DNA of 28,823 bases from a virus. Shown here piece after piece: positions 4,901 to 23,883 of the stretch (positions are counted from its first letter, which is position 1; every line of letters starts with the position of its first letter). The notes beneath the pieces are model-generated. The model was given only the letters and a program-made list of their open reading frames with translations. It did not search any database and was not told where the DNA came from. Both the position numbers and the translations under genes were made by a program. Location of the stretch: positions 1-28,823 of IMG/VR virus record IMGVR_UViG_3300028607_001909; one strand, 5' to 3'.

Positions 4901-5170
4901 AACGATGTCGACGCTTGGGTAATATTTAAAAACAATATTGAGTTAACCTTTACCCCTGTAAGGGGTAGGGATTATCTCATTAAGACCTCTTCCACGAAAT
5001 TTGACAACGACACGAGTAAAATGTCATACAAGTGGGGGGATAAGGACACTGCTGATAAAACGAATACGGTCGGTATTGGAAGTGTGTATAGATGCTTGAT
5101 AACGGACAGTGCTGGAGCCTCCGGGCTTTCAGGAATTTTTTATACTAACTATAGGACTTGGAGCAGCTAA
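1928..5170 (+). CDS. Large tail structural protein: N-terminal part of a beta-propeller plus Ig-like domains, 1080 aa
   Basis: Residues 1-375 look like the first part of a phage tail-tube/nozzle beta-propeller protein: repeated short strands with Trp/Tyr-rich turns, such as KGFLFLGNL, VQWSDFVDATSYYP, LMIYKERSIWRC and HFFMAEAGVYRL. Beta-sandwich regions follow: Ig-like at about 430-540 (FSYQWKKKNSS...YGVVVTNEDGTVTS), a second at 546-665 (ALKYKINVVNPAGNTDSDVATITV), and a third Ig/PKD-like stretch near 735 (GGTPPYTFAWYKN). Two small beta units near 880-1000 end the protein. The motif TKATCEAxSGTWS occurs twice. The TAA stop overlaps the next ATG (TAATG), and the next gene looks like the rest of the propeller. 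The structural role is well supported; assignment to a P22 gp10/T7 gp12-like nozzle is inference. Confidence 0.7.
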   Translation: MPRLPKFKDFHISPLTGPMNSRTPLDLLPQKQFRHVKNFRVDGAGRLRRGAGFKPLFDDGNYGLCYIDDSINSSYTTKATCEANSGTWSIKNNTDLHDQLGSKEDPTNSINEPITMLYEFESGGGSRKLVAASKSRIYALSQRTRNWTIIGDNGGSGYGEGISTDYTTTKFKAAQLGNNIVFTNNYNEPLYWFFDTKPDRADKNLVQTIPDLVKLKITKAQEIVEYKGFLFLGNLEENYAQQIAKVQWSDFVDATSYYPSLASLSGQQTVGDIGEAIIGMAVLGDHLMIYKERSIWRCSLVSSANLFVFKQVYQGENTPYYEDTLVTVGDAHFFMAEAGVYRLTISDVRPILIDWMHNASGIIFNKGEIITREDDSAGVCIISGATNPDYKTKATCEAASGTWSPIQGGIKDNKVVQEGTIAALAPCPARAPTIDTHPVNVSNINTNPCDASSYTKTITFTVEAEGREPFSYQWKKKNSSQTAAQAVSISGATKKTFVITNPESSDVKDFANADDFQYGVVVTNEDGTVTSNFATTTLASGSYSNSPDFTLQPEDVTEVIGGDAVLEARWCTASAEINQAGGASGTQWLKSTDDGDTYAAVALNAVAHVVESGLQPPDGSTAGYYHSKLTVKNLTFVEPPGDALKYKINVVNPAGNTDSDVATITVIKAATDDAPGGNLTLFAQHNYYRDVRVDETVGFEIKREGGVIVQSAPGLANNHVVRDGNTKAYYIRHEPLTIYVVGGTPPYTFAWYKNIDLSGAELTAARTQGSGVAVSVKAMGWKMAIGDIMKWYVSPNMAVLTLTAAVDVGDTTLTGDLTGADLPAPTGSPAQGLQSYMYWNPVHEHRISPFSDSTCDTTSFNVASCITTVDSKIVTCPNQVSIPITESQYVIGTGLVDETYIVSVDVDTDANGEAEPGTTALELSKAAEAAGSVTLSFTKTTVTCDSSSFIKVGQPVSGEVIEDNDVTVVAVTVAGAVTSFELSAPTTPYYDNDVDAWVIFKNNIELTFTPVRGRDYLIKTSSTKFDNDTSKMSYKWGDKDTADKTNTVGIGSVYRCLITDSAGASGLSGIFYTNYRTWSS
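2150..2194 (+). repeat. Cys-bracketed TKATCEAxSGTWS motif, copy 1
   Basis: Encodes YTTKATCEANSGTWS (residues 75-89 of the 1080-residue protein). It is preceded by another Cys (LCYIDD) about 14 residues before the central Cys. It shares an exact 17-bp stretch, AAGGCGACATGTGAGGC, with copy 2. Confidence 0.85.
3095..3139 (+). repeat. Cys-bracketed TKATCEAxSGTWS motif, copy 2
   Basis: Encodes YKTKATCEAASGTWS (residues 390-404), again preceded by a Cys (VCIISG). Differences from copy 1 are mostly in the second half and include synonymous changes, so selection on the peptide is likely. Confidence 0.85.
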
Positions 5171-7388: not shown

Positions 7389-9510
7389 CAGGCCGAGTTC
7401 AGCTGTCTCGATCTTCGATGATCTGGAAAAAGAGAAACAGGCAAGCGCAGCTAGGAGGATTCAGAGCCGATCCGTTAGTCAGCGAGCTGGGTACTATGAT
7501 TACCTAAACGCCCTTCAAAAACAGAAGTTAGAACAGACGGAGAACTCCGCACGCGGGGCTTCATTTGCCCAGAGAGCCCTCAACAAAAACAATGCGAAGC
7601 TTCACGATCATTACAGAAGACAGATAGCAAGGGAGCGAAAGGTTATCGGTGACAAGGTGGCGTTTCTTGATAAAACCATAGGCTTTGCAACGGAAAGGGG
7701 TCTCACGGCTGAACAGATAGCCCAGAGAAAGGAGGACGCGGAGGCTGGGGGTTTCGTTGGGAATCTAGCTGGAACCAACCCAGATCAATATGCAGTAGAG
7801 AGACTTGCGGCTTATGGGAAACTGTTGGGAACAGATGACTTTAAGGCAAGTTATATAGAGGGTGGTGCGACAGGTTCCTATGACAGGTTGGTCTCAGCTT
7901 TTACTATAGCGAACAATGCTATTAGAAAGGGAGCGACACTTGACAAATCTACAACAGCAATCGGTCTGATCGAGGGAAACACTGAGTTTATCAACGAGTC
8001 AGGCACTAAGGACTACAGGTTTGATGCGTCGGATCATCTCATAGAATACTATAAGTCTGTCTATGGCAGAGACCCATTCACACAGGGCCAAATTACTTCA
8101 AGCAGGCCCCTAAGCAAGGGAGAGATGTCGAGTGCTAGGGAAACTGTTTCAACCTACGACCAGAAACAGCGACCCGGTGGAAAGTTGATCCCAAGTATAA
8201 GGCCCGGGGAAAAGGGTTACGTTACACGCCATCCCGCACTGGACATAAGGGAACCTGAAGTAGAACCAGCCCCTGTTGAGGGTGTTGCCCCAGCTGCCCC
8301 TGCTCCTCCTGATTTTCTTCAGCAACTTGAGGAGGGATACGGCCCAGAACTATCTCCTTCATGGGTGTCTGGTCTTCCGAGGGATCAAATGATGAGCCCC
8401 GAATACGTGACACCCTTTCCAAGTGAGGTTCCCAGAGAAGCACCACAATTAATGCCAATGGATAGGGAAGAGGCACAACAAATTTCACCACCAGCCATTC
8501 CATCTTTTGTTCCTGACGATGAGGCTGAGCCTGAGATGTTCTCGGAAGAGTGGCAGGAGAACCTTCAAAGAGAGAGGGATAATAGTTATTACAGGAGAAA
8601 GCTTGATGAGACAAACGCAACGATATCAGATATGTTGAGGAGGTCGGAAGGGGGTAACCCTTCCACAACCTTCGCTTGGTACGATAAAGCTGTAAGAGAC
8701 AGGGCGATGTATGAAGGGTTGATTGAATACACCAACCCTCAGCAATTAATGCCAATGCCGTGGCAGCCCGAGGAACTCCCAGCTCCACCAGATCAACCAA
8801 CTCCGCCAGCTATTGACAGGCCTCCAGTTGATGAGGGTCGCCCCGAAGTTGAGGAGGCGGTTCTCCCAACCATGATGCCCCGGGAGGTTGCCCCAGCACC
8901 ACCAGCTCCAGCCCCGAAACCCCCAACAGCTCCAGCGGTTCCTGCCGAGCCTCCCCCGCCACTCCCTTCTGTTCGAAGGGATATGGTTCCAGAAGCAGGG
9001 GTGGTTCCATACTATGCGGACACACTGACCCCTGAGCAAAGAGATGTTTACTACGATGCCATCAATGAGATGGGGGAACGCGGGTCGACTGGGATGATGG
9101 AAAGGCGGGTTCCTTCTCGTGAAGAACTTGATTCTCTTTCCAGTTTTAGGCAACCTTATCGTGATCCCAGATATGATGCTGGTTATGGTTTTGCTGACAT
9201 AGGCGCGGATGAATATGTCCCCCCATTTGATCGTGGGCCGTTGGTAGACAGAAGTTATCCAGAGATGGGAAGGATAAATGATGCCGATTATCCCACTGCA
9301 TTTGATGGTGGAGAACTTGTTGAATTAAACACATTTGGTGGGCCGACCTTGATGCGTAGGCAAAGGTTAATGGATAGGGGGGGGGAACTTTCCCACTTTG
9401 AAGGAAATATTACCAGCGCTCAGGGAGCCACTCGATTACGAGAATTATCCGGGCAACCCCCTTTACAGGAGGGGTGGGCCTCTTTACGAAGAGTAAATAA
9501 AAATGCCTGA
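7369..9510 (+). CDS. Proline-rich putative internal virion protein, 713 aa
   Basis: Start at ATG 7369 with GAAGGA seven bases upstream; it overlaps the previous gene. Residues 1-240 are helical and charged (KQKLEQTENSARGASFAQRALNKNNAKLHDHYRRQIARERK). Residues 295-380 and about 460-540 are Pro/Ala/Glu-rich and likely disordered (APAPPDFLQQ, PAPPAPAPKPPTAPAVPAEPPPPLP). The motif QLMPM occurs in both (exact 15-bp repeat, 8446-8460 and 8743-8757). The C-terminal 170 residues are Tyr/Asp/Gly-rich. It overlaps the giant gene by 8 bp, which suggests both are made together and may be packaged together. No enzyme motif seen; the role is inferred from position. Confidence 0.6.
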   Translation: MPTVIYDRPSSAVSIFDDLEKEKQASAARRIQSRSVSQRAGYYDYLNALQKQKLEQTENSARGASFAQRALNKNNAKLHDHYRRQIARERKVIGDKVAFLDKTIGFATERGLTAEQIAQRKEDAEAGGFVGNLAGTNPDQYAVERLAAYGKLLGTDDFKASYIEGGATGSYDRLVSAFTIANNAIRKGATLDKSTTAIGLIEGNTEFINESGTKDYRFDASDHLIEYYKSVYGRDPFTQGQITSSRPLSKGEMSSARETVSTYDQKQRPGGKLIPSIRPGEKGYVTRHPALDIREPEVEPAPVEGVAPAAPAPPDFLQQLEEGYGPELSPSWVSGLPRDQMMSPEYVTPFPSEVPREAPQLMPMDREEAQQISPPAIPSFVPDDEAEPEMFSEEWQENLQRERDNSYYRRKLDETNATISDMLRRSEGGNPSTTFAWYDKAVRDRAMYEGLIEYTNPQQLMPMPWQPEELPAPPDQPTPPAIDRPPVDEGRPEVEEAVLPTMMPREVAPAPPAPAPKPPTAPAVPAEPPPPLPSVRRDMVPEAGVVPYYADTLTPEQRDVYYDAINEMGERGSTGMMERRVPSREELDSLSSFRQPYRDPRYDAGYGFADIGADEYVPPFDRGPLVDRSYPEMGRINDADYPTAFDGGELVELNTFGGPTLMRRQRLMDRGGELSHFEGNITSAQGATRLRELSGQPPLQEGWASLRRVNKNA

Positions 9511-12500
9511 AGACTTTGTAATGCCACCCGATCCACACAGTGGCGGGGGGTTGGATTTTGGTGGGTTCAATCAAACAGGCCCACTAAATTTAACGTATCT
9601 TACTAAACCAAAGCAAAAGCAGGTTGTCCCCTACGACCAAAGACTAGAGGAATACACGGCGGGTGGCGGGAAAAAGGCCACGAACCCTTGGCAACGTGGG
9701 GGGAGAGCTGGGTTTCTGGGTGGATTTGCCGGGGACATGGGTTTCTTTGAGACAATTTCCGACATACTGCCTTATGACCCGGGCAAGGAGTGGTTCAAGG
9801 GGATTGGTGACGCACTAGAAGAAGAGGCCTACGAGGTTCCCATGAGAACCCTCCGCGACATTAAGGGAGCGGGGGATTTCATGGATTACATGGGTCAGGG
9901 TATTGGTTATGTCTTTGGTTATGTTGGTTCGATGATACCAACAGCTCTTGCCACTGGTGGGCTTGGTGCAGCTGGAAGGATAGTCGGCAGGGAGGCTCTC
10001 AAGGGTTTAACAAAAAAACAGATTGGAGCCCGTGGAGCACAAGCTGTTGGAAGATTTGTCACTGGCCCATCCATCATCAAGAACACAGGCCATATATATC
10101 GCGGTGTTCGTGAGGAAACGGGGGTTGAATCGCCAGCTATTGCTATTCCAGCAGGTATAGCTTCGGGCATGTTGGAGCGGTTTGGCATGGGCAAAACATT
10201 CGGTACTTTTTTCGAAACCATACCGTTCAATGCGAAGCAGCAGGTCTGGCGTCAGATGGTTGCCAACGCGATGAGGGGTTATGGCAGGGCGTGGGCCATC
10301 GAGGGTGCGACAGAGACAGGTCAGGAATTAATTCAGCTTGCCGCCAACGAGGTGGCTGACAGCACATACGACTTGGTTACTTCTGAGAATGCTTGGCGTG
10401 TTCTTGATGCTGCAGCCTTGGGTGCATTTGGTTCTGGCCCATTTGGTGCTATTGGTTCGGCTGGAAATTATTATGGACAGAAGGTTTCCGCTGAAAAGGA
10501 CAAGAAACTGGTTGATGAGGTTATACGGCGCGTACAAAACATAGCCCCCGAAGGCAGCCAGATAATGTTCCGCATGGGTCAGCAGCGAATAAAGGAACAG
10601 GCGGCGCTGCTTGGTGACGAAGAGTTTATTCCCACAGATTCACATGTGGAGACACTGGAAAGGGTTGTTGACCAGATTCAGGAACAGAAGAGCCTGTCTG
10701 AAGAACAGAAAGCGGCGCTGCTTGCTGATGCAACAAATGTTCTTGGCAGGTTCAGGGAAAGGTTTGCCACACAGGAAGCGACAAAGGCAGAGGAATCTTC
10801 TGATGTAGAGGTTGCCGCTCGGGACAACAGGGAGGCTGCCGAACAGGTGGCTGGTGTTCCCTCCCAGCAGATGGTGGAACCCGAGTCAGCTATTCTCCCA
10901 GAGAACCAAGCGCCCTATAACAATCCTGAATCAAGGTATAACATTGGTCAGGAATACAAGCATAGGTTGGACACAGTTGAGGGTGAGGCAATACAGGTTG
11001 ATGCTGTTGTTACAAAGATAGGTAAAGACGGCAGGGTTCTCGAGTCTGTCAGTGCTGACGAGAACAGGCTTCCGCTTATAGTAACCAAGGGTAAGAAAAC
11101 AATTTCACTTCATACTCAAGAGGATGTCTTGAATGTGATGAAAGAGCTTGATGCTGACAAGTTTGGAAGGCCAGAGCCCAAGTCGGCAGCTGAATCCAGC
11201 TTGGCGATGGTTCAGTTGCTTGATGCGCAGGAGAAGAGAAAGGTAAGCAGAGAGGTTGCCGAGGAGGCGGGTGCTGAAATTGAAACGGACGAAATAATTC
11301 CTGCCACTGAACTTATAAAAAGAAGGAAGGCGCGGGAAGCCAGTGTGGCTGCCAAGAAAGCAGGGAAACCACCCCTTCAGGCTGCCAAAGCTGTGGCAAA
11401 GGCCGTTAGAACAGTTTACGCAGCCAAGCCAGCACCCACCGCTAAGGTTGGCAGGGAAGAGATGGACAGAATCAACCTTGAGAACAAGCGCAAGACGATT
11501 CTTAAATCCAAGGTGGTTGAGGTTTCCCGTCCCGGTGAAAAGAGAAGGACTGGTGTTATCACGGAGGTCAAACTGCTTCAGCATTTCTCGGAAGCAGTAG
11601 GTGGGCCGAGGATGTTTTCTGCGGAGGTTCATTGGGATGATGGTGAGATAGAGACTGTTAGTATTGATGAGAACTTTGAATCAAGCCAGCCACTGTATGG
11701 TGGTCTCATGGTTGTTGCAAAGAACGGTAAGTTATCCAAGGAACAAGAGTCGGCCATATCCAATGTGGAGAAGAAGGTGATACCAGCGGTTGACCCAGAG
11801 GCTGAGGAAGTAGCCGAGGTTCAGGTTCCACCACCAACCGAGAAGCCAAGGGCAACCAAGGAGACAACGAAAGCACCAACAAAACCACAACCCACAAAAG
11901 AGGTTGAGGTTACAAAGCGCATCGTTAAAGGGGAGAAACCCGAGGTCAAACCAGAGGAGGTGGCGGGGTTAAGTTCGGAAGAGACACTACTTCTAAAGGC
12001 TATTAACACTGAGGTTACAAAGCGCACTATAGGCGTTCGTGACACGGGCGCAGGAGCGGTTACTACTGTAGACGAGGCGACAGGGGAGCTTCTTCTAGAC
12101 GGGTTGTCCGAGGCTGAAATTAAAGGTGAACAATATCAGTTGGCCAACAGGGGGATGCGAGTTGATGCGGTCAAGATGCTAGTGGAGAATACGGGATGGT
12201 TGTTTGACGCGAGGCGACAAGAGTTGGGTTTAACTAAAATCGCCGCTGAAAACATTAAGATAATTGAGGCTCTTAAAAAGAAGGTGGGTGAGCAGAAGCC
12301 AGTTATCTTGGGCAACCTGAAGCTGGATAAGGATTTATCTGCTCGGATGAGGCAGATGAGAAATGACAGGGCGGAAGAAGACAAAATGCAGATGACCATT
12401 GAGACATTTATTGTTCGGTCATTTGTTGAGCTCGGTCGGCTAATAGAAACTGCAACGATTTACATTAGACAGCTTTATAGGAACGGGAAGGTAAAGTCTG

Positions 12501-15500
12501 GGGAGAAGTTCAACAGGGAAACTAGGGGCTACAAGGCTGTTAGGGATAGGTTCATAAAAGACCTTAGTATAGACTTGGAGGAACGCCTCCCGCAGGACGC
12601 ACTGATGCCACACCTGCCGTCGTTTGGGGAAGACCCGGTTAAGTTTCTTGGCGGCCTGTTCGATGCTGTTGTCGAGGAATACAACAAGGTTGACGGGGTT
12701 CGCGGTCTTTCCTCAATGGAGGACGGGGGTGTTAATCAGGACAAGGCAAGGGAACTGGAGGGGTTGATCCTAGACAAGGACACCCTGTCAAAATATCTGG
12801 ACTACCCGATAGCAGAGGATACGGATGATGAGAGGACAATTGTAATTGCCAACTCAAACATATTTAAGAAAACAGATACTGGCTGGGATATAAATAACAT
12901 AGAGCTTTACAGTGATGACCTGAGTAAACAATACATCCCCGTCATGGACTTCTCAGACCACAAGGGTTTGAGTGTCACGATCAAGTCTGTTGGGAAGGGG
13001 ATGGATGCCATAGCCTATAGGCTTTCCGAAGAAGCCTTGAAAAGGGTTCGCTTTCAGGAAAGTAAAACATCAGGACGCGAGGGCAAGGTTACGTTCGCCC
13101 ACATACCAGAGTCACTTTTAATTGAGAACGGAAATGTTCAGTACGACAACTGGGTGTTGGATACCCAGAAGGCAGGTGGTCGTTTCTTAAAGGATATAAG
13201 CTGGGTCGGTCTTCCCACCGAGGAGTTTGTCAGGCTGCTTAAGTTGAGAACAAAGAACAAGGAGCTCAAGGCCTTTTTAAAAAGCAAGAAGGGTGGGCTG
13301 CTTCTTTCATCAAAGGAGGAGGTGGCTGCAACAATCGCCAATGCCATACTGCTTGCTTCTGATCCAAGATATAAGCCATCCAACAAGAAGGCAAAGACAG
13401 CAAAGAAGGCTCTTGCAGAAAAGAAGGATTCAAAGGTGGCCCTCTTTAGTGTTGATCAGTTACAGAAGCTTCTTGAGCACGCAATCAACATACATCTGGA
13501 TCACTTCGCAACACTAACGGAAAAACAACTTGGATTGTTGACGCCTGAGTTGACAGAACTAAACAGGCTAACCGCCTATCATAACAAGCTTTTCAGGGCT
13601 TACCATGAGAAGTCCATACCCAGAGCTCTTGACCTACCCAAGCTTGATGCCAATCTTGAACCGAAAGCAGACACCTCGCTAGATATGAGGGGGCTTGCCC
13701 TTTGGATTACAAATGATCCTGATGTTTTAAAGGGTCGGAAGCCCAACAAGGGTATGTTTATTTCCAGACTGAAGGAGTTGTTTTATTCCTTTGAGGAAAA
13801 GAAAGAGGGTTTACCCAAGGCGCTCAAGAGAAAGACGCTTAGGCCAGAGGATTTAAAGGAAGCAAAAGATACGCTGGAAAAGGTTAGTGCCAGAATGGAC
13901 GAGCTTAGGCTCAAGGTGTCTCAGGTCAAGGAGAGTGCTGTCCTGAGCGAGGATGACTTGGTAAATCTTGAAGCCACAATCAGGCCAGCTGAAGCGCGGA
14001 TGGGTTTAAGGATGGTTGAGAAGACCGCCGTTGGAGATGTTGAGTTTATTGCTGAAGGGGAAGTAGAAGAGGAGTATGAACTTGATCCCTATGTTAAAGA
14101 CAGGGGTGCCACAGTTCGAGTTGGCCCGACAAGGAAGATCGTAGAAAACATCAGGAACTTCTTTAAGAAAGGCACGGGGCTTGGTGATGCTTATTCTGCC
14201 ATTGTGCTTTACACCGACGGGGTAGAGAGGGAGAAGGAAAAGTTCACAGCAGAATACAGATCAACACTTCTTATTGATGAAGCCAAGGAGCGCGACCCCG
14301 TAAAGGAGGCCGAGGCCAAGATTGCTCTTGAAACCGAGAAGGGGGTTGCTACGCCTATCGCAGAAGGGGAAGACCCAAGCAAACAGGTTATTGCCAAGGA
14401 GCGGGAGGCAGAACTAGATAGGCTTTTAGAGGGTAAGTTTGATGAGGACACAGAACTTGGGCGAGCAATAAAAGGATTCAGGGCGGCCAGAACCAAGCTG
14501 GTTGATTTGATCGAGCACGGTTCCGAGGAAGACCCAGCATACGGAGCCAAGCTACTTGAGTATCAGCTGAACATGCTGACTGAATGGGATACATTCATGG
14601 CGAAACAGGGCACGGATTTTGTCCTTTCACTCAGGCCAAATATTATGGGGCAGCCAAGCCTTGATTATAAACTGATGCCAAGAACAGCGGGGTTGTTGGA
14701 GGTTTATAAAGATATAGAGAGTGAGAACATATCTAGAGTTAAGGCGCGTGGCATATTTGAATCCATTGATGCGAAGATAGAAAGGGTTAAGGCAAGGTTC
14801 AATGATGCTGAATCGGAAAGGCTGGCGTTAAGGGACTCCTATGATGCAGCTGTTAAAAGGGTGGATGCCATCCTTGAACCAATCAGGAAGCAGACCCAAG
14901 CTTTTATTAACAGTGAACATGCCAAGGGGCCAGAGGAAAGAAAGTTTCTTGCAGGGCTGGGGTGGGTTGGCCCGAGGGGGGGCAGAAAGCAGCTTACCCC
15001 GCAAGATGTGACCATTCATAAGGTTATTACCCATCCTGAAAAATACGCTGGTGAATCTGGTGCCATAAGAGAGAAGCTTGAGGAAGAAAAACCAATCGTT
15101 GATGGGTATCTGCACGCGGTGGCATTAAGGGATGGACTGGCATTGAACCTGTCCTTGTTTGAAGAGGAACTTGCCTACATATACGGTGGCGCTCTTAGGT
15201 TTAAAGCTTCAGATGTTCCGGGTATTGGGTTTGAACCAGTAGAAGGTGAGTCATGGTTAAAGGCACCAGACTTTGAAAGACTCAGGGCTAAAGAGAAAAA
15301 ACTAGAAGTTGATATAGAAGAGTATAAGAGGGAAGGCCTTAAAGTAGAGGCCACAAAGGCAAGAAAAGAGAGGGCCACGATAAACAAAATCCTGAGCTTC
15401 TGGAGGTCTGAGTCCAGAAAGCGCGGAAAGGTAAAGGAGTATAGGTTAACCGCACAGAAACTCAAGAAGAGGGAGGTTGTGTTTCAGGTTATATTTGATT

Positions 15501-18500
15501 CACACATACAAGGCGGGGCCCGGAGGTTGCCTGTTGGAAATCTGTTTGGCCACCTTGTCTCTATTTCCAACAAGTTCAGTGAGGATCAGTTCAGGGAGAC
15601 GGGCAAACCCATACAGGTTGAGGTGGCTGGGTACAGGATGGAGACGCCAGCGAGCCTGTACTACAAGCTTTACAAGACACTGGAACTTAGAGACCCCAAA
15701 AAGATTTTAAGTCATCCAATCTTCTCCAATTCCGGGATGTATATTGGCCCGATTAAACCAGAGGGAATGACAGAGGAGAGGTGGATTGATTCAAGGTTCA
15801 AGAGAACCGAGAAGATTGGTTCTGAAATTCAAAAGTACATAGACAACCACAGCGTGGAACAACACGAGGCATCCTTGTTGTATATAAAAGACACCATACT
15901 TGCTTCCATTGTTAATGATTTCATATCTATTTTCACATATGAAGCAGGTTATCGCGGAAACAAGGAGGCAATAGTCAAGAAGGCCATGGGGGTGAGTGGT
16001 AAGCTGAGTGAAATAACCGAGCACTTAAGCGAGGGGTTAAGGATACCGTTTAAGCCGTTGTTGGAGGAGGATATTGATCCTAGCATAACAGAGGAAGCCC
16101 TAACCGATCTCGGGAACCAGCTTGGTGTTGCCAAGGAGAAATTCAACAAGGCTCTTGAGGTGTTCGAAAAGAACAAGGGTGCCCTAGATGTCGCAAGGTT
16201 ATCTTACCGAAACGTGGTCGTATCAAGAACGGGTAAGACTGATATCGAACAGCCCAGCGAGCTTGGTAAGCTTGTCGTGTTTGCTGAACAAACCAAGGCA
16301 AAGTATCACGCAGCCAAGACTGAGCTAGACAAGATAACCCTGCAAATAGAAGCGATTAAGGCAGACCCAAGGATTTTATTTAAGAGTGAGATAAGCAGCA
16401 GTAGTCTGGACATTATACCAAACAAAAACCTGTCCACAACTATAACAATGACGCTTCCTTTCGGGTATTCTTCCGTAAAGGCTGATCGTAAATCAATTGA
16501 TCTTGAGATTAAACCGATGCCACTTGATGGTAAGCTTGCTGAAGGTGACACATCGGGCGGCAAGGGTTCTGTAGAGATTGGTCGTTCCAAGGGTTCCGAT
16601 GAGATTGCCCAGTTGCTGCACGAGAACAGGGCTAGGTTGGGTGATGCTTTTGTTGATAGGTCGCTGAGTTTTCTTAGCCAGATACCAGACAAGTATTTAG
16701 ATGAGCTAACCCTGAGTATGTATGGCGGTGGGCTTGAGACAATCAAGGGAACAAAGCTTTCTGGTTCCTTTATGGAAGCCATCAAAACAGTTTTCATTCC
16801 AACAGAGGGCAACACCACTGATTCCTTTGTTCATGAGTTCTCGCATTATCTCCACGCGTTCCTTCCAGCGGAACAACAGGAACGTGTTACACACATGCGG
16901 AAGGACGCGCTTCAAAAGGTTGTGTCCAACACAAAGGATGGCAGGTTGAGATACAGAATTGAAATGGCCTCGGTGTTCCTTGTTGATGCGGACTCAGACA
17001 TGGCCATGGGCCCAGATGATTTTCAATTTTACTTGGATAAGTATGGAGACAAGGCAAAGGACATGTATCACCTGATGAACGACAGGGAGTTCTTTGCTTA
17101 TATCATGACCAAGGAGGGGCAGAGGGATATAGGAACACTCTCTCCTAACAGCAACCCGGTTGGGTTTGTTGCTAAAATCAAGCAGTTCTTTGCTGACTTT
17201 ATTAATTGGGTTCTAAAGAAGAGTGGGCTTGTCGTTGGGGAAGCGGCGTTCGTTGATGAGGTGTTGTCCAAGTTCAAGTCTGGTTCCTTTACGGTTGAAA
17301 GAAGGATGTTCACCGCAGGGCCAGCGGTTGATGCCTCCATACTAACAGTCAGTGACCTTAAGCGGGCGCTGGAATTCAATGTAAGGAATGCCGCGTTAAC
17401 CGAGGGGGGTGGGGCAAACGTGGAGGCTGGCAGGCAGGTTTCAATGGAGGCGGGTTCATTCCACAACATGATCTATGACCTTTCCAATAAGTTTCTTATG
17501 GAGATGTCGGAGAGCGATGAGTTCAGGAACCTGTTAACTGGCCAAGACGATGAGGTTTCCATATCAAAGAGAGCTGCAGGACTGGCGAACATCAAGGAGT
17601 CTTCTGCCATAAGGAGGCTTCTCGAGGATAACGAGATCAGTTCAGGTGGTGTGATCTTCAGTCCCGAGGGTTACCTTCAGTTGTTGAAGGTCAAGAAGAC
17701 GCTCAAGGATAAGGATAAGATTCCTGATTCAATGTGGCAACAGGTCAGCAAGGAGTTCTTTAAGAACACCGAGGAATTCTTGGAATCATATAGGAGGCTT
17801 CTGGCAAAAGCTGATGCGGTTAAGGGTGAGAATCAAAATGAAAAGCTTAAGCGCCTCTTGTCTGAGGTAAAGGAACAGTACGACAGCAAGACAGCAGCAG
17901 CGTCCTCCGCTGCTTCATTCAAGGGGATGATCAGGTCTATGCTTGAAAAGGCAAATGAAAGGTCAGCAGAGAACGAGGCCATAAAAAGACTTACACAGTA
18001 CGGGTTCGACCTTAACCAGATCACAAGCCAGCTGGATGACAAACTGATAGGCGGGGAGATCAACAAGATGATCCGTGACTTTTACAACACGGTATGGTTC
18101 AGCGCAGAAGCTCAGATGATTCTGCACAAGGGGATAAACAAGGATGGAAAGAAGGCCACTTGGGAGGATTTGATGTGGACTTATATAGTGGAGAAGGGGA
18201 TTGAGCTTAAACACAGAAAGAGAAGGGTCGGGATGAGCGCCGATGATAGGCGCAACATGATGTTTGCTGAGGTTGAACCTATAATGAAGTTTGCTGCTGA
18301 CCACATACTGAAGGTACACCAGAACGACATGCTGTTGAATGAGGTTTCGGAGAAACAACTTGAGGCTTCGTTCAATGAATACACAAAATATGAGGCAGAG
18401 ATAAACGCCCTGTTTGAGACCAACACGATCACCACCAAGGCAGGGAAACTTCAAAAGGTTGATGGTGCCAAGAGGGCGGTTGACAGGCTTCTTAAGGATT

Positions 18501-21500
18501 ACAAGCAGGCGGTTGGTGATCAGGCTATAGCCAACAGGCTTTACCTGTCCTTGAGGCGCAATGTTCATTCACAAATAAGGTACATGAATGATGTGACTGT
18601 TGCAGCCGAGCTGGTGGGCAGGATAGTTGAGTCCAAGGAGTTCAGTGACGCTAGGAATGCTGCCGCTGCCGAGATAGAGGCGAAGCCAGACAGGGAAATG
18701 AGCATTGATACCGCCAAGATTACTTTCATTCACCCAGAGAAAGGTGAGGACTTTGAGTTTTATTATGATGTTAGTGACAAGACTGGTAGGGAAAACCAGC
18801 TAAGGAAGTTGAGCATATATGTTGAGAGCCTGAACAAATGGTTGGCAGACAACCCAGAAAGCCCATACACAGATTTCTGGTTGGAGATGAGGGATTATGC
18901 CTCTGCCACAATGCTTAGCCCAACAATGAGGGGCGGGCAGGCAATGAAGCCCGTTGTGAATGTCAACGCTTTAAGGCCAATACAAAACATGATGGCTGGT
19001 ATTGGAACCTATACGTCTCGTCTGTCAATGACACACATGGACAACATGGTTGCCATGATGGAGCGATCAGCTGATATAAAGGACATGTATGAACAGAAGG
19101 TTGTCAACGCCCTTCAGGCAGCAGCCAAGTCCCACGGATTCAGCACCGATCCGATTGGTATTGATGATTGGTTTACTGCCATCGGGGAAAGGTTCTTTGC
19201 CACCGCAAACCAGACGGGAAGAAAGCTTAATGTTGGTGACAGGGTTACCATGTCTGACCTGACCGACATCAAGACTGTTACCAAGGAGGATGAAGCGGCC
19301 ATTAAAATTCAGGTTGAGTTCACCGGGGCCCTGTTTCAGATGGATGTTAAGCAGGGCAGGGGTGACCTTATATTGCGCAGGAGAACCGAGGAGGAATTAC
19401 GGAAGAGGGGCGGAAAGGCTGGCAGGATTATAGGAAGAAAGGCACTTCAGGTTACACCGTGGACTTTGCCCAAGACATTCTCATCCAAGGCAATTAGGTT
19501 TTCACAATCAATTTCTGCCATGCTAAGGGAGCACAAGGATGCGGTCAGTGACATTGATGCCGACACAACCCTTAGCGACAGCCAGAAGCGCGAGCTGAAG
19601 CTTGGGTTCTTCAAGGCAGCAGACAGGAGGGGGGACTCAGTTATGTCACTCATAGGTGAGAACTTTAACAGGTTTGTACTGGCTTTTGTTGACAACAGGG
19701 AGGGTAGAATAACAAACGGAACAAACCCGTTCTTCACTGAGGGTGTATATGATGAGGCCAGAGATTCCATGGTTAAAGGGGAGATCAGAAATCTGGACGA
19801 ACTGGCTGAGTTCTTTTCCAACAGGTCTGTGGATATAACCAAGCTTGGTCAGGAGGGTGTTCCCATGCAGCTCTCAAAGAAGGAGGCTCTGTATGAGCTT
19901 CTTAGAGAAATGTCCACCCAGTCGGACAAGTTCCATGATTTTATTTACGGGAAGATAGACCACGACACTGAGACTTCCCTTGCCTACAAGTTTGCCAAGC
20001 TAAAGAAGGACTCTCCATTTACTGTTGCGAGGCAGGAGCCAATTGCAAACTACTACTATTATAACTATGGCATTTCCGAGACAGTTGGTTTGCACAACCT
20101 GTCACTTGAATCCAGCGCACAATACATAGACGCCTTCAGGGCCTCGCTTGATGCTGTGGAGGGTGAGCTTGATGCGGCATCAAACGACAAGAAGCTGGCT
20201 GCAGAGAGGGGTAACCTAGAGGAGTTCATGGAGGGCAAGAAACAGAGCGCCGCAAACAGGGAATCCTTCTTGGACTACGAGAGGGTTGAGGCACACAAGG
20301 CAAACGTCAAGGCCCTGATGAACGACATAGATGCTGTTCGTGATCGTGACATCAGGTACGAGCTTCAGGTTAACAGAACTTTCAGAAGGGTGTTTGGTGA
20401 CATGATCAGTGTTGCAATTCAAGCGCCAACAACTGCGCTGGTTAACCTGATAGGAACACCTGTCAGAACCACCATGAGAATGCAGGCCATGTTCGGGTTT
20501 GCACCCAAACTAAACGCAAGGTTTGTCATAGATGCGCTCAAGGAAATGACAAAGGGTGCGGCAACATTTGGCAGGGGTTTCATAAAGGGGGCGTGGGGAG
20601 GTCTGGGTTACCTTGCAATAGCCAAACCAAAGAAGGCGCTGATTAAATTCGTTGATGAGTTCGCCAACAAACCGTTCACAGAGGACTTTGTGATTGGTCA
20701 GTACAAGGTTAACTCAACCTTGCGCAGGATTTTTGATGCCGGGTACGGCATGAGGATAGATGTACAGGGCAAGATAGATGCCTACTGGGATTCAGTTGAA
20801 ACAAGGGGGAGGGTCGAGCGTGCCCTTGAGCTGAGGGGCAGGGGTGCCCATAGAAGTTTCTGGTCTAAGCTCTATAATGGTTCGGCCCTTATCCTTGCCG
20901 AGATTCCCGGGACTACATTGCCCAGACTTTTCGACGCTGTTGGTAACAATGTTTCCTTTAGGTTTGCCAACACAGCCATGTCGCACTTGGAACTTAGGCT
21001 GAAAGATTTACACAGAAAATACGGGGACTCCTTGTGGGAAAGGTATAACGACCCAGATGTATTGGCCAAAGACACCAACAAGATGGACACGCTTACCCCT
21101 GTGGATGCGTTTGGTGAACAGTTCCTCTTTTCCCCAGACGAATCCAAGCTTGGCAAGCTGGAGAACATGTTCATGCACGCTGGTCTGGACTTCCATCAGG
21201 AAGCCTTCAGGTTTTATAAGGCGCTGAACACAGACAAGGAGGCAACCTTCCTCACTCCAGAGCAGCGGGCCCAGATGGGGATTGGTTTGGTAACCTCTGA
21301 GAACCTTGCGACCATAGCCAACAGGCCGCTCAAGTTCAGGAACGATCCTAATGTTGGTTTCTTGTTTGCACTCAGCGGGTGGAGTTTGTCTGCCGCCCAT
21401 AACAGTGTTGAGTTCCTGTCAAAGGCGCAGGGCGGGAAGCAGGGTTGGTCTGTTAACTCCCTCAATGTTCAGCTTGGAATGGTGATGCTCGGGATGATGG

Positions 21501-22399
21501 CTGTCGCTGGTGTTGCCTTTGCTGGACAAGAGGAGTTAATGCGCAAGATTTACAGGTTCATGTTTGGTGAGGTCAGGGTTGGGAGACATCCGTGGGAAGC
21601 TGATTCAGCTGGTGAGGCAGCGAGAAGGACTTTGCTTTATGCATTAAGTGGGTTCCCGATTGTCAACACCCCGTTTAACATGATGTTGAACGACCAGAAG
21701 AACATGGCATCAATGGGCATGGACTTGTTTATTCAAAACAAGGTAAGGGATGTTATCAATCTGGCGGGTCAGCTTGCCAGCACGAGGAACTTGGAGGGGG
21801 CGGAGAGGGCCCTGCTGGTTTGGACGAAACAAACATATCCAAATTCTAGGATGCTTGTGAACGCATTCCCCTCCATATCAGGAACCATAGACCTGATGAA
21901 CAACAAGAGGCTTATACAGCGTCACTCACCTAGGGACATAATAAAAGTTTCAAGTTATTCTGGGGGTGCAACCACTGCCACACCGTTGACGGGTATCATT
22001 GGGAAGATGAGCAGCTATGCTACTCAGGGTCGCTTCGATGAGTTCATGGAACTCTACAGAAAGGCGGTAAGGGTTGCCCGTGAACTGGGCAGGCCAGACC
22101 CGGAGAGGTATGTTCGCACGTTGTATTTTGGTAAAGACCCGTACAGGGCCGCACTGAAGGGAAGGATCACGGAGGGGGTTAGAACAAGGGTGCTCAACAG
22201 CCTTGATCCATTGGAGAGAAGTGAGTTTTTGAATGTTGAAAGGAATTTTTACAAGGGGCTAAGGATGATTGGTGGCTCACCTAGGTCTTTTGGTGTCGGG
22301 GCTTATATACCGAGGCGAAGAAGTTACAGACGGACAGGGAAGCCGTTCCCAACAGGGATGAAGTCCGCTAGCCCGCTGAGGAAGACTTATGCCCTTTAG
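9503..22399 (+). CDS. Giant virion-type protein with internal zinc-peptidase motif, 4298 aa
   Basis: One open frame of 4299 codons. N-terminus: GFLGGFAGDMGFFETISDILP, then a hydrophobic Gly-rich segment at 133-158 (GIGYVFGYVGSMIPTALATG). A small beta-barrel-like region lies at about 668-730 (SKVVEVSRPGEKRRTGVITEV...AEVHWDDGEIETVSID). Long charged helical stretches follow, for example 1920-1995. A metallopeptidase signature FVHEFSH is at 2442-2448, with a possible third ligand in NDREFFAY (Glu2529). Hydrophobic segments occur near 3634-3656 and 3991-4009. The C-terminus (RVLNSLDPLERSEFLNVERNFYKGLR) and the general plan resemble the large polyvalent or ejection proteins of podoviruses. It probably enters the cell with the DNA and may open the envelope. 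I found no polymerase motifs. Function is inferred; only the peptidase motif is direct evidence. Confidence 0.8.
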   Translation: MPEDFVMPPDPHSGGGLDFGGFNQTGPLNLTYLTKPKQKQVVPYDQRLEEYTAGGGKKATNPWQRGGRAGFLGGFAGDMGFFETISDILPYDPGKEWFKGIGDALEEEAYEVPMRTLRDIKGAGDFMDYMGQGIGYVFGYVGSMIPTALATGGLGAAGRIVGREALKGLTKKQIGARGAQAVGRFVTGPSIIKNTGHIYRGVREETGVESPAIAIPAGIASGMLERFGMGKTFGTFFETIPFNAKQQVWRQMVANAMRGYGRAWAIEGATETGQELIQLAANEVADSTYDLVTSENAWRVLDAAALGAFGSGPFGAIGSAGNYYGQKVSAEKDKKLVDEVIRRVQNIAPEGSQIMFRMGQQRIKEQAALLGDEEFIPTDSHVETLERVVDQIQEQKSLSEEQKAALLADATNVLGRFRERFATQEATKAEESSDVEVAARDNREAAEQVAGVPSQQMVEPESAILPENQAPYNNPESRYNIGQEYKHRLDTVEGEAIQVDAVVTKIGKDGRVLESVSADENRLPLIVTKGKKTISLHTQEDVLNVMKELDADKFGRPEPKSAAESSLAMVQLLDAQEKRKVSREVAEEAGAEIETDEIIPATELIKRRKAREASVAAKKAGKPPLQAAKAVAKAVRTVYAAKPAPTAKVGREEMDRINLENKRKTILKSKVVEVSRPGEKRRTGVITEVKLLQHFSEAVGGPRMFSAEVHWDDGEIETVSIDENFESSQPLYGGLMVVAKNGKLSKEQESAISNVEKKVIPAVDPEAEEVAEVQVPPPTEKPRATKETTKAPTKPQPTKEVEVTKRIVKGEKPEVKPEEVAGLSSEETLLLKAINTEVTKRTIGVRDTGAGAVTTVDEATGELLLDGLSEAEIKGEQYQLANRGMRVDAVKMLVENTGWLFDARRQELGLTKIAAENIKIIEALKKKVGEQKPVILGNLKLDKDLSARMRQMRNDRAEEDKMQMTIETFIVRSFVELGRLIETATIYIRQLYRNGKVKSGEKFNRETRGYKAVRDRFIKDLSIDLEERLPQDALMPHLPSFGEDPVKFLGGLFDAVVEEYNKVDGVRGLSSMEDGGVNQDKARELEGLILDKDTLSKYLDYPIAEDTDDERTIVIANSNIFKKTDTGWDINNIELYSDDLSKQYIPVMDFSDHKGLSVTIKSVGKGMDAIAYRLSEEALKRVRFQESKTSGREGKVTFAHIPESLLIENGNVQYDNWVLDTQKAGGRFLKDISWVGLPTEEFVRLLKLRTKNKELKAFLKSKKGGLLLSSKEEVAATIANAILLASDPRYKPSNKKAKTAKKALAEKKDSKVALFSVDQLQKLLEHAINIHLDHFATLTEKQLGLLTPELTELNRLTAYHNKLFRAYHEKSIPRALDLPKLDANLEPKADTSLDMRGLALWITNDPDVLKGRKPNKGMFISRLKELFYSFEEKKEGLPKALKRKTLRPEDLKEAKDTLEKVSARMDELRLKVSQVKESAVLSEDDLVNLEATIRPAEARMGLRMVEKTAVGDVEFIAEGEVEEEYELDPYVKDRGATVRVGPTRKIVENIRNFFKKGTGLGDAYSAIVLYTDGVEREKEKFTAEYRSTLLIDEAKERDPVKEAEAKIALETEKGVATPIAEGEDPSKQVIAKEREAELDRLLEGKFDEDTELGRAIKGFRAARTKLVDLIEHGSEEDPAYGAKLLEYQLNMLTEWDTFMAKQGTDFVLSLRPNIMGQPSLDYKLMPRTAGLLEVYKDIESENISRVKARGIFESIDAKIERVKARFNDAESERLALRDSYDAAVKRVDAILEPIRKQTQAFINSEHAKGPEERKFLAGLGWVGPRGGRKQLTPQDVTIHKVITHPEKYAGESGAIREKLEEEKPIVDGYLHAVALRDGLALNLSLFEEELAYIYGGALRFKASDVPGIGFEPVEGESWLKAPDFERLRAKEKKLEVDIEEYKREGLKVEATKARKERATINKILSFWRSESRKRGKVKEYRLTAQKLKKREVVFQVIFDSHIQGGARRLPVGNLFGHLVSISNKFSEDQFRETGKPIQVEVAGYRMETPASLYYKLYKTLELRDPKKILSHPIFSNSGMYIGPIKPEGMTEERWIDSRFKRTEKIGSEIQKYIDNHSVEQHEASLLYIKDTILASIVNDFISIFTYEAGYRGNKEAIVKKAMGVSGKLSEITEHLSEGLRIPFKPLLEEDIDPSITEEALTDLGNQLGVAKEKFNKALEVFEKNKGALDVARLSYRNVVVSRTGKTDIEQPSELGKLVVFAEQTKAKYHAAKTELDKITLQIEAIKADPRILFKSEISSSSLDIIPNKNLSTTITMTLPFGYSSVKADRKSIDLEIKPMPLDGKLAEGDTSGGKGSVEIGRSKGSDEIAQLLHENRARLGDAFVDRSLSFLSQIPDKYLDELTLSMYGGGLETIKGTKLSGSFMEAIKTVFIPTEGNTTDSFVHEFSHYLHAFLPAEQQERVTHMRKDALQKVVSNTKDGRLRYRIEMASVFLVDADSDMAMGPDDFQFYLDKYGDKAKDMYHLMNDREFFAYIMTKEGQRDIGTLSPNSNPVGFVAKIKQFFADFINWVLKKSGLVVGEAAFVDEVLSKFKSGSFTVERRMFTAGPAVDASILTVSDLKRALEFNVRNAALTEGGGANVEAGRQVSMEAGSFHNMIYDLSNKFLMEMSESDEFRNLLTGQDDEVSISKRAAGLANIKESSAIRRLLEDNEISSGGVIFSPEGYLQLLKVKKTLKDKDKIPDSMWQQVSKEFFKNTEEFLESYRRLLAKADAVKGENQNEKLKRLLSEVKEQYDSKTAAASSAASFKGMIRSMLEKANERSAENEAIKRLTQYGFDLNQITSQLDDKLIGGEINKMIRDFYNTVWFSAEAQMILHKGINKDGKKATWEDLMWTYIVEKGIELKHRKRRVGMSADDRRNMMFAEVEPIMKFAADHILKVHQNDMLLNEVSEKQLEASFNEYTKYEAEINALFETNTITTKAGKLQKVDGAKRAVDRLLKDYKQAVGDQAIANRLYLSLRRNVHSQIRYMNDVTVAAELVGRIVESKEFSDARNAAAAEIEAKPDREMSIDTAKITFIHPEKGEDFEFYYDVSDKTGRENQLRKLSIYVESLNKWLADNPESPYTDFWLEMRDYASATMLSPTMRGGQAMKPVVNVNALRPIQNMMAGIGTYTSRLSMTHMDNMVAMMERSADIKDMYEQKVVNALQAAAKSHGFSTDPIGIDDWFTAIGERFFATANQTGRKLNVGDRVTMSDLTDIKTVTKEDEAAIKIQVEFTGALFQMDVKQGRGDLILRRRTEEELRKRGGKAGRIIGRKALQVTPWTLPKTFSSKAIRFSQSISAMLREHKDAVSDIDADTTLSDSQKRELKLGFFKAADRRGDSVMSLIGENFNRFVLAFVDNREGRITNGTNPFFTEGVYDEARDSMVKGEIRNLDELAEFFSNRSVDITKLGQEGVPMQLSKKEALYELLREMSTQSDKFHDFIYGKIDHDTETSLAYKFAKLKKDSPFTVARQEPIANYYYYNYGISETVGLHNLSLESSAQYIDAFRASLDAVEGELDAASNDKKLAAERGNLEEFMEGKKQSAANRESFLDYERVEAHKANVKALMNDIDAVRDRDIRYELQVNRTFRRVFGDMISVAIQAPTTALVNLIGTPVRTTMRMQAMFGFAPKLNARFVIDALKEMTKGAATFGRGFIKGAWGGLGYLAIAKPKKALIKFVDEFANKPFTEDFVIGQYKVNSTLRRIFDAGYGMRIDVQGKIDAYWDSVETRGRVERALELRGRGAHRSFWSKLYNGSALILAEIPGTTLPRLFDAVGNNVSFRFANTAMSHLELRLKDLHRKYGDSLWERYNDPDVLAKDTNKMDTLTPVDAFGEQFLFSPDESKLGKLENMFMHAGLDFHQEAFRFYKALNTDKEATFLTPEQRAQMGIGLVTSENLATIANRPLKFRNDPNVGFLFALSGWSLSAAHNSVEFLSKAQGGKQGWSVNSLNVQLGMVMLGMMAVAGVAFAGQEELMRKIYRFMFGEVRVGRHPWEADSAGEAARRTLLYALSGFPIVNTPFNMMLNDQKNMASMGMDLFIQNKVRDVINLAGQLASTRNLEGAERALLVWTKQTYPNSRMLVNAFPSISGTIDLMNNKRLIQRHSPRDIIKVSSYSGGATTATPLTGIIGKMSSYATQGRFDEFMELYRKAVRVARELGRPDPERYVRTLYFGKDPYRAALKGRITEGVRTRVLNSLDPLERSEFLNVERNFYKGLRMIGGSPRSFGVGAYIPRRRSYRRTGKPFPTGMKSASPLRKTYAL

Positions 22400-22721
22400 C
22401 TGATATCTCCCCTATCAACCATCTCCATACAAGGGGGCTTTGCCTCATGGTTGTTGCTATACCAATTGACATCTTACCCGTAAACGATTCCTCTAATATT
22501 TTACTTGGAGCCCCCATCCCATGGTTAACAGCATGAATGATTTCATGAAGCAGGGTTTCTGCCCGTGACTGTCTTGGTAAATCTTTGATTACAGCGATCA
22601 CTTGTGATTGAAAGTCGCACCAACCCAGCTGGTCAGCACCCCCTTCATTGGGGGTGGTGATCCAGTTGATCCTGTATGTCAGGTTCAATATGTCTACCTC
22701 GGTTGGTAACTTTCTTCCCAT
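22368..22721 (-). CDS. Small HEIIH zinc metallopeptidase-like protein, 117 aa
   Basis: Start chosen at ATG 22721 (MGRKLPTEVDILNLTYRINW), where the family's usual opening begins; the frame stays open upstream to a TTG at 22820, and no good ribosome site is visible. TLLHEIIHAVNH at 56-67 gives the zinc motif H59-E60-x-x-H63, and Glu78 in ILEESFTGKMS is the likely third ligand. This matches a small phage family related to ImmA/SprT-type peptidases, with an N-terminal beta hairpin, GWCDFQSQVIAVI strands and the HExxH helix. The substrate is unknown. Its 3' end overlaps the end of the giant gene by 32 bp on the opposite strand. The 330-nt region upstream is highly structured. Confidence 0.75.
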   Translation of the reverse strand: MGRKLPTEVDILNLTYRINWITTPNEGGADQLGWCDFQSQVIAVIKDLPRQSRAETLLHEIIHAVNHGMGAPSKILEESFTGKMSIGIATTMRQSPLVWRWLIGEISAKGHKSSSAG

Positions 22722-22893
22722 GGTAAAAATAAGGTTGGGGGTCGATGAACTTACTCCCGTTCTAATTGTGACTGTCCCGGTTGTGAACACATACGCTTGA
22801 CATGCCACACGGGAGACCAAACAACCGCCCCTGTAGATGGGGTCTTGGCGTGAACCCCCAACCTTTTAAATTTAGGACAGAACTTTGTTTCAT

Positions 22894-22907
22894 GAGGTGT
22901 ACACCTC
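22894..22907. repeat. Perfect 14-bp palindrome GAGGTGTACACCTC
   Basis: It is identical to its reverse complement. Its right half (CACCTC) is also part of the 9-bp stem with 22934-22942, so two pairings compete. As DNA it could equally be a binding site for a dimeric regulator. Confidence 0.8.
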
Positions 22908-23022
22908 GACACTTTTAACGGTAACCAACCAAAGTCGAGGTGATCCTGTCCTGCGATCTCCACAGGCACCATACGTCCTGCCCATAAAACGCCCCCCGCA
23001 CACCGCACTCACGGGGCGGGGG

Positions 23023-23072
23023 TTCCAGCGAAAGTGTTGCCAAACATGTTGGTTCATCGCTGGAATTTTTTT
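23023..23072 (+). terminator. Rho-independent terminator-like hairpin with T7
   Basis: TTCCAGCGA (23023-23031) pairs with TCGCTGGAA (23057-23065), followed at once by seven T (23066-23072). The 25-nt loop contains its own small stem, CCAA/TTGG (23040-23043/23049-23052). The orientation fits + strand transcripts: either the structured RNA just upstream or read-through from the late operon. It overlaps the 3' end of the convergent minus-strand gene. Confidence 0.6.
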
Positions 23073-23311
23073 AATATCCTTGTCCATAGTGAATCATTTG
23101 GAATGGAATACGGTGGATCAAGCAGAGGCATGTCCTCCTTGTTTTTCCTAGCCCTTTCTGTTGCCTTGTTGAACTCTGATTGGGTCAACATCAACGGGGT
23201 ATAGATCAGGTTTTCAAGGTCATTAAGCCACACAGCATAGTAATACGCATTGGCTGATGTCTTCCTGTCCTTGTTCCTCACTCTTTCCATTATACCTAGT
23301 TTAGTTCTCAT
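23054..23311 (-). CDS. Small hypothetical protein, 85 aa
   Basis: Start chosen at ATG 23311 (MRTKLGIMERV), two bases after the upstream stop. An ATG at 23326 would add five residues and overlap the upstream gene. The middle (ANAYYYAVWLNDLENLIYTPLMLTQSEFNKATERARKNKEDMP) has the look of small phage proteins with a beta hairpin followed by a helix (xTPLLLTxxExxxAxxRAxKNxED). The family is widespread next to nuclease and recombination genes, but I know of no function. It is the last gene before the structured intergenic region. Confidence 0.65.
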   Translation of the reverse strand: MRTKLGIMERVRNKDRKTSANAYYYAVWLNDLENLIYTPLMLTQSEFNKATERARKNKEDMPLLDPPYSIPNDSLWTRILKKFQR

Positions 23312-23313
23312 GA

Positions 23314-23883
23314 TTAAAGTTCCCATTTCATGTTGGGAAACGGGTGTAACAACTGATTTTCACAAACATAAGCCCCGGAAAATTGGCCCTCCTTTTTGAG
23401 TTTACCCTTGAGTTCAGAGTCCCCAACCCATCCCATTATATGACAGAACACTTTCTCGTTAACAATATCAACGACCACCAACCCATATGTCCAATCCTCC
23501 TTTCTTTCGTTTTCCCTGACAGCTAGGACATAGTCCGTGGGTCTCTTGCCCGGTCTAAGCCTTGAACCTTTGAAGTCCAGACTCAACCCCGGGATATCAT
23601 ATCCACCATCGCCCCTGTCTGGAGTCCTCATGCAGTTCCATCTCTGGAGCTTGTACATCTGGTCACTTCCAGTCAGGTACAGGGTTCCACCAAGCTGGGC
23701 CAGTTGTCCTGTGAGCTGGTCTCCATCCAGCCTCTTAATTCTTTGGTCTAGGTTCTGTATATTCGAGCCAGACTTCTTTTTCTGTATGATTCTTGGCATG
23801 AAATAACCCACCAGTTCAGACGCCTTTTCCTCGGCCAGCAAGATGTCGGCCTTGGTCAAGACTACTGTTGGGTACTGGGTCAT
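23314..23883 (-). CDS. PD-(D/E)XK endonuclease-like protein, 189 aa
   Basis: Residues 93-106 (GGYDIPGLSLDFKG) carry the core D96...D103-x-K105 of the PD-(D/E)XK nuclease fold. The conserved frame around it has a helical N-terminus with Glu19/Glu20, strand WTYGLVVVDI after the core, and the end FSGAYVCENQLLHPF, typical of small phage nucleases of this kind. It probably cleaves DNA during recombination, replication or host-DNA breakdown; specificity is not visible. The ATG overlaps the recombinase stop (ATGA), so the two are translationally coupled. Confidence is good for the fold, moderate for activity. Confidence 0.7.
   Translation of the reverse strand: MTQYPTVVLTKADILLAEEKASELVGYFMPRIIQKKKSGSNIQNLDQRIKRLDGDQLTGQLAQLGGTLYLTGSDQMYKLQRWNCMRTPDRGDGGYDIPGLSLDFKGSRLRPGKRPTDYVLAVRENERKEDWTYGLVVVDIVNEKVFCHIMGWVGDSELKGKLKKEGQFSGAYVCENQLLHPFPNMKWEL

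Follow-up and report, generated by a model that had tools for sequence, protein, structure and literature searches.

A terminator-like hairpin with an invariant GNGU/UGU tip marks a candidate small RNA module in a phage spacer and in many other uncultivated viruses

Introduction

What is encoded by the spacer at 22722-23053 of an uncultivated phage genome, on which strand, and to what end? The window analysed here is the complete 28,823-base IMG/VR record IMGVR_UViG_3300028607_001909, in which 342 nt had been singled out in an original prediction as a new structured RNA between convergent phage gene blocks, with small RNA, packaging RNA and regulatory leader as its proposed roles. Judged by sequence comparison, the spacer encodes a real, previously uncatalogued structured RNA, on the strand opposite to that of the first description. 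Three covarying domains, H1-H2 (22993-23065), domain A (22874-22984) and domain B (22731-22865), stand in series, and only about 75 nt of the interval, namely H1-H2, belong to a widespread family. Hairpin H2 recurs, in varying positions, in many uncultivated bacterial viruses that otherwise differ from one another, which suggests a shared RNA job.

The spacer and its flanking genes

The plus-strand genes of the window include virion genes and a 4298-aa open reading frame (ORF; 9503-22399), the minus strand carrying recombination genes, an integrase, a 189-aa protein, a 90-aa ORF and a 117-aa SprT-like peptidase. The spacer is flanked by the last two of these minus-strand genes and thus does not lie in a gap between convergent gene blocks, as had been proposed, the convergence being found further left, at 22368-22399. 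The relatives L002-L004 and L064 each have a homolog of the 90-aa ORF, 83-87 aa in length, at the corresponding position, and the homolog of the peptidase in L008 matches the Pfam SprT-like family below the curated cut-off. No tRNA or tmRNA was found in the window. The features of the region are as follows.

22368..22721, minus strand: downstream gene, 117-aa SprT-like metallopeptidase with an HEIIH motif (phrog_1233, E 3.3e-16)
22731..22865, minus strand: domain B, 12-bp stem 22731-22742/22854-22865 with hairpin H3 (22828-22842) inside (covariation)
22874..22984, minus strand: domain A, closed by the long-range helix 22874-22883/22975-22984, with hairpin A2 (22950-22966) and other stems inside (covariation)
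22986..22989, minus strand: short U-run UUUU, three nt past the H2 stem, weak in the window and longer in most other lineages
22993..23022, minus strand: hairpin H2, CCCCCGC-C-CCGU-GAGU-GCGG-UGU-GCGGGGG (covariation; 57.1 bits with model R1 in the window)
23023..23065, minus strand: H1, variable hairpin domain adjoining H2 on its 5' side, with closing stem TTCCAGCGA/TCGCTGGAA (compensation)
23054..23326, minus strand: upstream gene, 90-aa ORF of unknown function, its stop codon inside H1

Two plus-strand genes outside the spacer also deserve mention. The 4298-aa ORF has no PHROG match, and relatives have homologous long ORFs in the same place; a 1080-aa virion-type protein (1928-5170) gives a weak immunoglobulin-like domain match near residues 455-530.

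Stems, relatives and covariation of the spacer

The perfect 12-bp inverted repeat 22731-22742/22854-22865 that opened the original prediction is present, and its description as unlikely by chance holds, a perfect repeat of at least 12 bp appearing in none of 1000 dinucleotide shuffles of the 342 nt. The CCCCCGC/GCGGGGG pair (22993-22999/23016-23022) is likewise found where it had been seen, and the two arms of the H1 closing stem are present at 23023-23031/23057-23065. The nested 7+9-bp hairpin survives in part: its 9-bp arms (22902-22910/22934-22942) are there, but its 7-bp stem AGGACAG/CTGTCCT is not conserved in relatives, which pair 22874-22883 with 22975-22984 instead. What had been taken for a terminator-like hairpin with T7 is H1 read from the other strand, and the A-run equivalent of the T7 is missing in relative L064. 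Folding z-scores of the region against shuffles are -4.52 on the plus and -4.62 on the minus strand; with values of about -4.5 on both, folding energy alone cannot choose the strand.

Relatives of the window were obtained with the 189-aa neighbour protein as query, which led to three viral contigs (L002-L004) with the same gene order and 77-78% protein identity. A single-sequence search of viral contigs with the SprT-like peptidase gave no match, and an alignment of the peptidase added the fourth relative, L064. The least variable stretch in the first alignment of the relatives is a 28-nt core, CCCCGCCCCGTGAGTGCGGTGTGCGGGG on the minus strand. Compensatory changes in related phages, the first check suggested for the region, were found for all three domains. 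Domain A shows double-sided changes in 8 of 16 counted pairs with 98.4% of cells paired (four sequences), and domain B in 8 of 16 counted pairs with 97.5% of cells paired (five sequences), the 12-bp stem reading AAGGTTGGGGGT/ACCCCCAACCTT in the window and AAGTCTGGGTG/CATCCAGACTT in L003. The H1 stem is maintained by compensatory changes in L002, L003 and L064, and in other lineages, too, a stem-closed domain of different sequence precedes H2. Domain B is found only in the window's lineage, in five phages, and ends 9 nt upstream of the peptidase start codon. Domains A and B, which follow H1-H2 in the window and are lineage-specific, probably make up a structured leader at the 5' end of the SprT-like peptidase mRNA. 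The claim of a new structured RNA thus stands as regards compensatory changes in three domains and the lack of an Rfam 15 match, but not as regards one 342-nt RNA on the plus strand.

A conserved protein frame across the core, the alternative outcome named for such an alignment, was not found in the relatives. A candidate frame (PRECGVRG) does cross the core in the window and L002-L004; it was rejected because, upstream, the frame changes from the window to L003 and because the inner-helix sequence varies freely in other lineages. In a nearby ORF (MKQS...), L003 and L004 differ by a one-base indel that breaks the frame. A reading of the CCCCGC/GCGGGG stem as a CRISPR-repeat-like RNA or RNA anti-CRISPR finds no support, since nothing but the tip is fixed and stem sequences are free to vary.

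The H2 motif

H2 consists of a variable outer stem, a C, a 4-5-bp helix of free sequence, a GNGU tetraloop and a UGU, the last forming two single-U bulges that flank a C-G pair. RNAfold gives the same shape for 62 of 62 elements: inside the outer stem come a U bulge, a C-G pair, a second U bulge, 4-5 bp and the GNGU tetraloop. Among 15 representatives, whose outer-stem pairing was partly selected by the stem filter and whose inner helix was unselected, double-sided changes occur in 6 of 12 pairs with 99.4% of cells paired, against 0 of 500 shuffles. The inner helix also covaries in L074 and L064.

A search with the pattern CCCGGCN{4,6}GNGTN{4,6}TGTCCGGG, which does not require inner complementarity, gave at least 120 rows. 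Among the new loci in the matches listed, the inner arms are fully complementary in 85 of 93 equal-arm matches, amounting to 21 distinct helices, and the variable position of the tetraloop in these 85 hairpins is T in 72, A in 12 and G in 1. A cellular control with a looser pattern on 392 genomes, in contrast, gave scattered matches, and none of the six equal-arm matches among the 20 loci fetched was complementary; the motif is thus real and not an effect of composition. The tip (GNGU, and the C opposite UGU) is invariant and receptor-like, set on stems of free sequence under strong compensatory selection.

Strand, U-tracts and promoter-like sites

G-U pairs recur in H2, for example as U-G at the loop-closing pair in 7 of 15 rows. 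The functional strand is the minus strand, because the G-U pairs of the relatives would become A-C mismatches on the plus strand, and because U-tracts follow the hairpin on the minus strand in most lineages. Scored as five or more T among the 9 nt that follow the matched stem, a U-tract follows H2 in 49 of 64 hairpins of the sampled family, a clear one being missing in about a quarter. H2 also has the GC-rich hairpin by which intrinsic terminators are recognised. Only GCGUUUU comes after the stem in the window, and L002 and L003 have no U-tract.

Directly 5' of H1, a promoter-like site, that is, a match to the consensus TTG-N15-18-TANNNT, is found in 47 of 70 elements, compared with 0, 1 and 0 of 70 at more distant 5' control positions, 1 of 70 when the reverse strand is read and 4% of shuffled sequences. 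Many of the 47 come from a single terminase lineage (36 of 37), their sites overlapping the 3' end of the terminase gene; sites in other contexts are those of L103, L139, L171, L180, L187, L195, L203, L207, L219 and L235. None was found directly 5' of H1 in the window lineage, which, together with the short U-run there, limits the reading of the window copy as a small RNA gene.

Distribution and hosts

H2 occurs in more than 80 IMG/VR loci, sense or antisense, beside many different neighbour genes and with three terminase types; the loci are redundant, and counts from the matches listed are not frequencies. A 15-nt core search of viral contigs gave 56 loci, of which those with complementary flanks are the window's relatives and two other phage groups. 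H2 adjoins a homolog of the window's SprT-like peptidase (35-37% identity) in the L006/L008 group, and lies antisense to genes, with a completely different stem (CCTAGG), in the L018/L019/L044 group. A degenerate-pattern search added lineages in which the hairpin stands between the terminase gene and gpW/portal genes or behind a large primase/helicase-like ORF, as well as the copy in L103. H2 is usually found directly 3' of the stop codon of a sense gene, and in the largest groups it directly follows or precedes the gene for the large terminase subunit; flanking genes come in many different combinations. The terminase is of the phrog_2 type in the window's relatives, its gene 24-27 kb from H2, of the GpA type in the largest group and of the Terminase_6 type in another. 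With the strict pattern, there is one H2 copy per phage record.

The hosts are likely in or near Verrucomicrobiota, since Verrucomicrobia phage P8625 is the best, though distant, match for both the portal and the terminase of the largest group, and since L006 encodes an H-X9-DG protein at the curated cut-off. No convincing hairpin was seen in P8625 itself, in Akkermansia phage Moulinsart, in EBPR podovirus 1 or in further phages whose terminases or portals are related, so carriage of the element is not simply tied to a single gene.

Several individual loci carry further features. In the L006/L008 group, pilin-like N-termini and the H-X9-DG protein (L006:14-1319 and L008:6580-6840) are convergent with the H2 element. 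A tRNA gene lies within about 0.5 kb of H2 in two loci (L148:4159-4232 and L231:4260-4333), with a partial one in L228:1-53. A phage with the peptidase homolog has an apparent shortened H2, CCCCGG-C-GAGT-GT-CCGGGG followed by T6, without an inner helix (L073:1069-1101). The record that includes L103 (G015) has a second H2 at about 45410 (L133:160-199; inner helix CTGGC/GCCAG, loop GGGT), and a DUF3800-VIII RNA (RF03075, 49.9 bits; L103:1015-1082, minus strand) is located about 300 nt from the L103 H2 on the opposite strand.

Database searches

The suggested Rfam search bore out the novelty of the element: Rfam 15 gave no match at the gathering score and nothing up to E 5 in the window, and its covariance models, those for DUF3800 included, matched no H2 element as a family member. 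BLAST of GenBank phages and plasmids with hairpin queries returned chance-level matches only, BLAST being insensitive to short variable hairpins. A search of GTDB genomes for the window-type core gave three matches, none of them with the stem. Literature searches turned up no description of a GNGU/UGU hairpin motif. Model R1, whose E-values are rough, found mostly ordinary terminators in genomes from a single phylum, to which a Planctomycetaceae MAG belongs, and a possible variant in cellular genome G082. This hairpin (L136:602-690) is H2-like, GCCCGG-C-CCGCG...CGCGG-TGT-CCGGGC-T8 with an 11-nt loop; the GGGGACAGTC within the loop is complementary to an upstream GACTGTCCCC, and the hairpin adjoins RelE/Phd-like toxin-antitoxin genes.

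A small RNA module and its alternatives

In the reading preferred here, held with roughly even confidence, H1-H2 is a small noncoding phage RNA module of about 75-100 nt whose terminator hairpin carries a protein-binding motif. The unit would usually be transcribed from its own promoter, with H2 doubling as intrinsic terminator and binding site; a candidate protein, more likely a host factor than a phage protein, would recognise the H2 tip, and the RNA would sequester or redirect the host factor during infection. The apparently promoterless window copy would probably be processed or terminated out of the minus-strand transcript. The compensatory changes, the common fold, the U-tracts, the promoter-like sites, the varied contexts and the lack of an Rfam match speak for a small RNA gene. 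Against it count the missing promoter-like site and short U-run in the window, the quarter or so of hairpins without a clear U-tract, the concentration of promoter matches mostly in one lineage, and a host assignment drawn from distant matches. Of the roles first proposed, small RNA is thus the best supported for H1-H2, with regulatory leader fitting domains A and B.

More tentatively, phages that infect one host group but otherwise differ might share a mobile RNA gene in which a host factor such as RNA polymerase or an RNA-binding protein docks on the terminator hairpin. The GNGU/UGU receptor would then, equally tentatively, be the hallmark of a new class of phage RNA, regulatory or counter-host in function. 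An RNA common to phages with differing terminases, gene orders and neighbours points to a common host target, and the free sequence of the helices that surround the invariant tip means that binding experiments and covariance searches are feasible at once. Hairpins of terminator shape in phage spacers, commonly passed over as ordinary, can conceal RNA families missing from Rfam.

H2 might instead be a cis-acting, factor-responsive terminator or 3'-end module, in which a host or phage factor reading the tip sets read-through or RNA stability and no trans-acting RNA is involved. Terminator anatomy in most lineages, the usual position directly after the stop codon of the sense gene and the location of the window copy inside an operon are what this would predict; a separate RNA gene nevertheless better fits the antisense copy of L018/L019/L044 and the dedicated promoter-like sites, and a strong terminator within a terminase-portal operon would be odd without antitermination. 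We regard it as possible but rather improbable.

The proximity of H2 to the terminase large-subunit gene in the largest groups would suit an RNA operator or packaging signal, a hairpin near the packaging genes bound by phage terminase, portal or a translational repressor. This is unlikely, given that terminase families differ among carriers and that phages with related terminases lack the hairpin; the distance of 24-27 kb to the terminase gene in the window's relatives also disfavours the packaging RNA of the original prediction. Slightly less probable still is a DNA-level element, the hairpin acting as folded single-stranded DNA at a replication start, recombination or packaging site: a single copy per phage record, movable and in either orientation to genes, is consistent with it, but strand-specific G-U wobbles, and U-tracts and promoter-like sites on the same strand, are not. 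That H2 is just a GC-rich terminator of the ordinary kind, or a set of chance stems lacking any conserved motif, can practically be set aside, since, common as GC-rich hairpins are and even with R1 weakly matching ordinary terminators of cellular genomes, an invariant C, GNGU and UGU with freely covarying helices, the negative cellular control and the shuffles without a perfect 12-bp repeat all argue against it.

Comparison with known systems

Like intrinsic (Rho-independent) terminators and the small RNAs that end in one, the proposed H1-H2 module closes with a GC-rich hairpin and, in most lineages, a U-tract. In contrast to ordinary terminators, H2 has a selected invariant GNGU tip and a C/UGU double bulge, and its U-tract is weak in the window lineage. 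The DUF3800-I to XI RNAs of Rfam (e.g. RF03075, DUF3800-VIII) resemble H2 as terminator-like hairpins with conserved internal loops on mobile DNA, but no Rfam DUF3800 model matches H2 elements.

Among phage RNAs, the put RNA of HK022 is roughly 70 nt long, has two stem-loops and exploits a host factor. H1-H2 may be likened to it in size and in its two stem-loops, by description only; put RNAs are antiterminators and have no terminal U-tract. The phi29 packaging RNA is also phage-encoded and structured, but differs from H2 in size and architecture, and its association with packaging motor genes has no counterpart in the window's relatives, with H2 24-27 kb from the terminase gene. For the tip, BIV TAR offers a lead: there, two single-U bulges around one G-C pair form a known protein-binding groove. 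The bulges of BIV TAR sit on the other hairpin arm, in an unrelated virus and context, and by analogy the two U bulges of H2 around one C-G pair may open the major groove in the same way.
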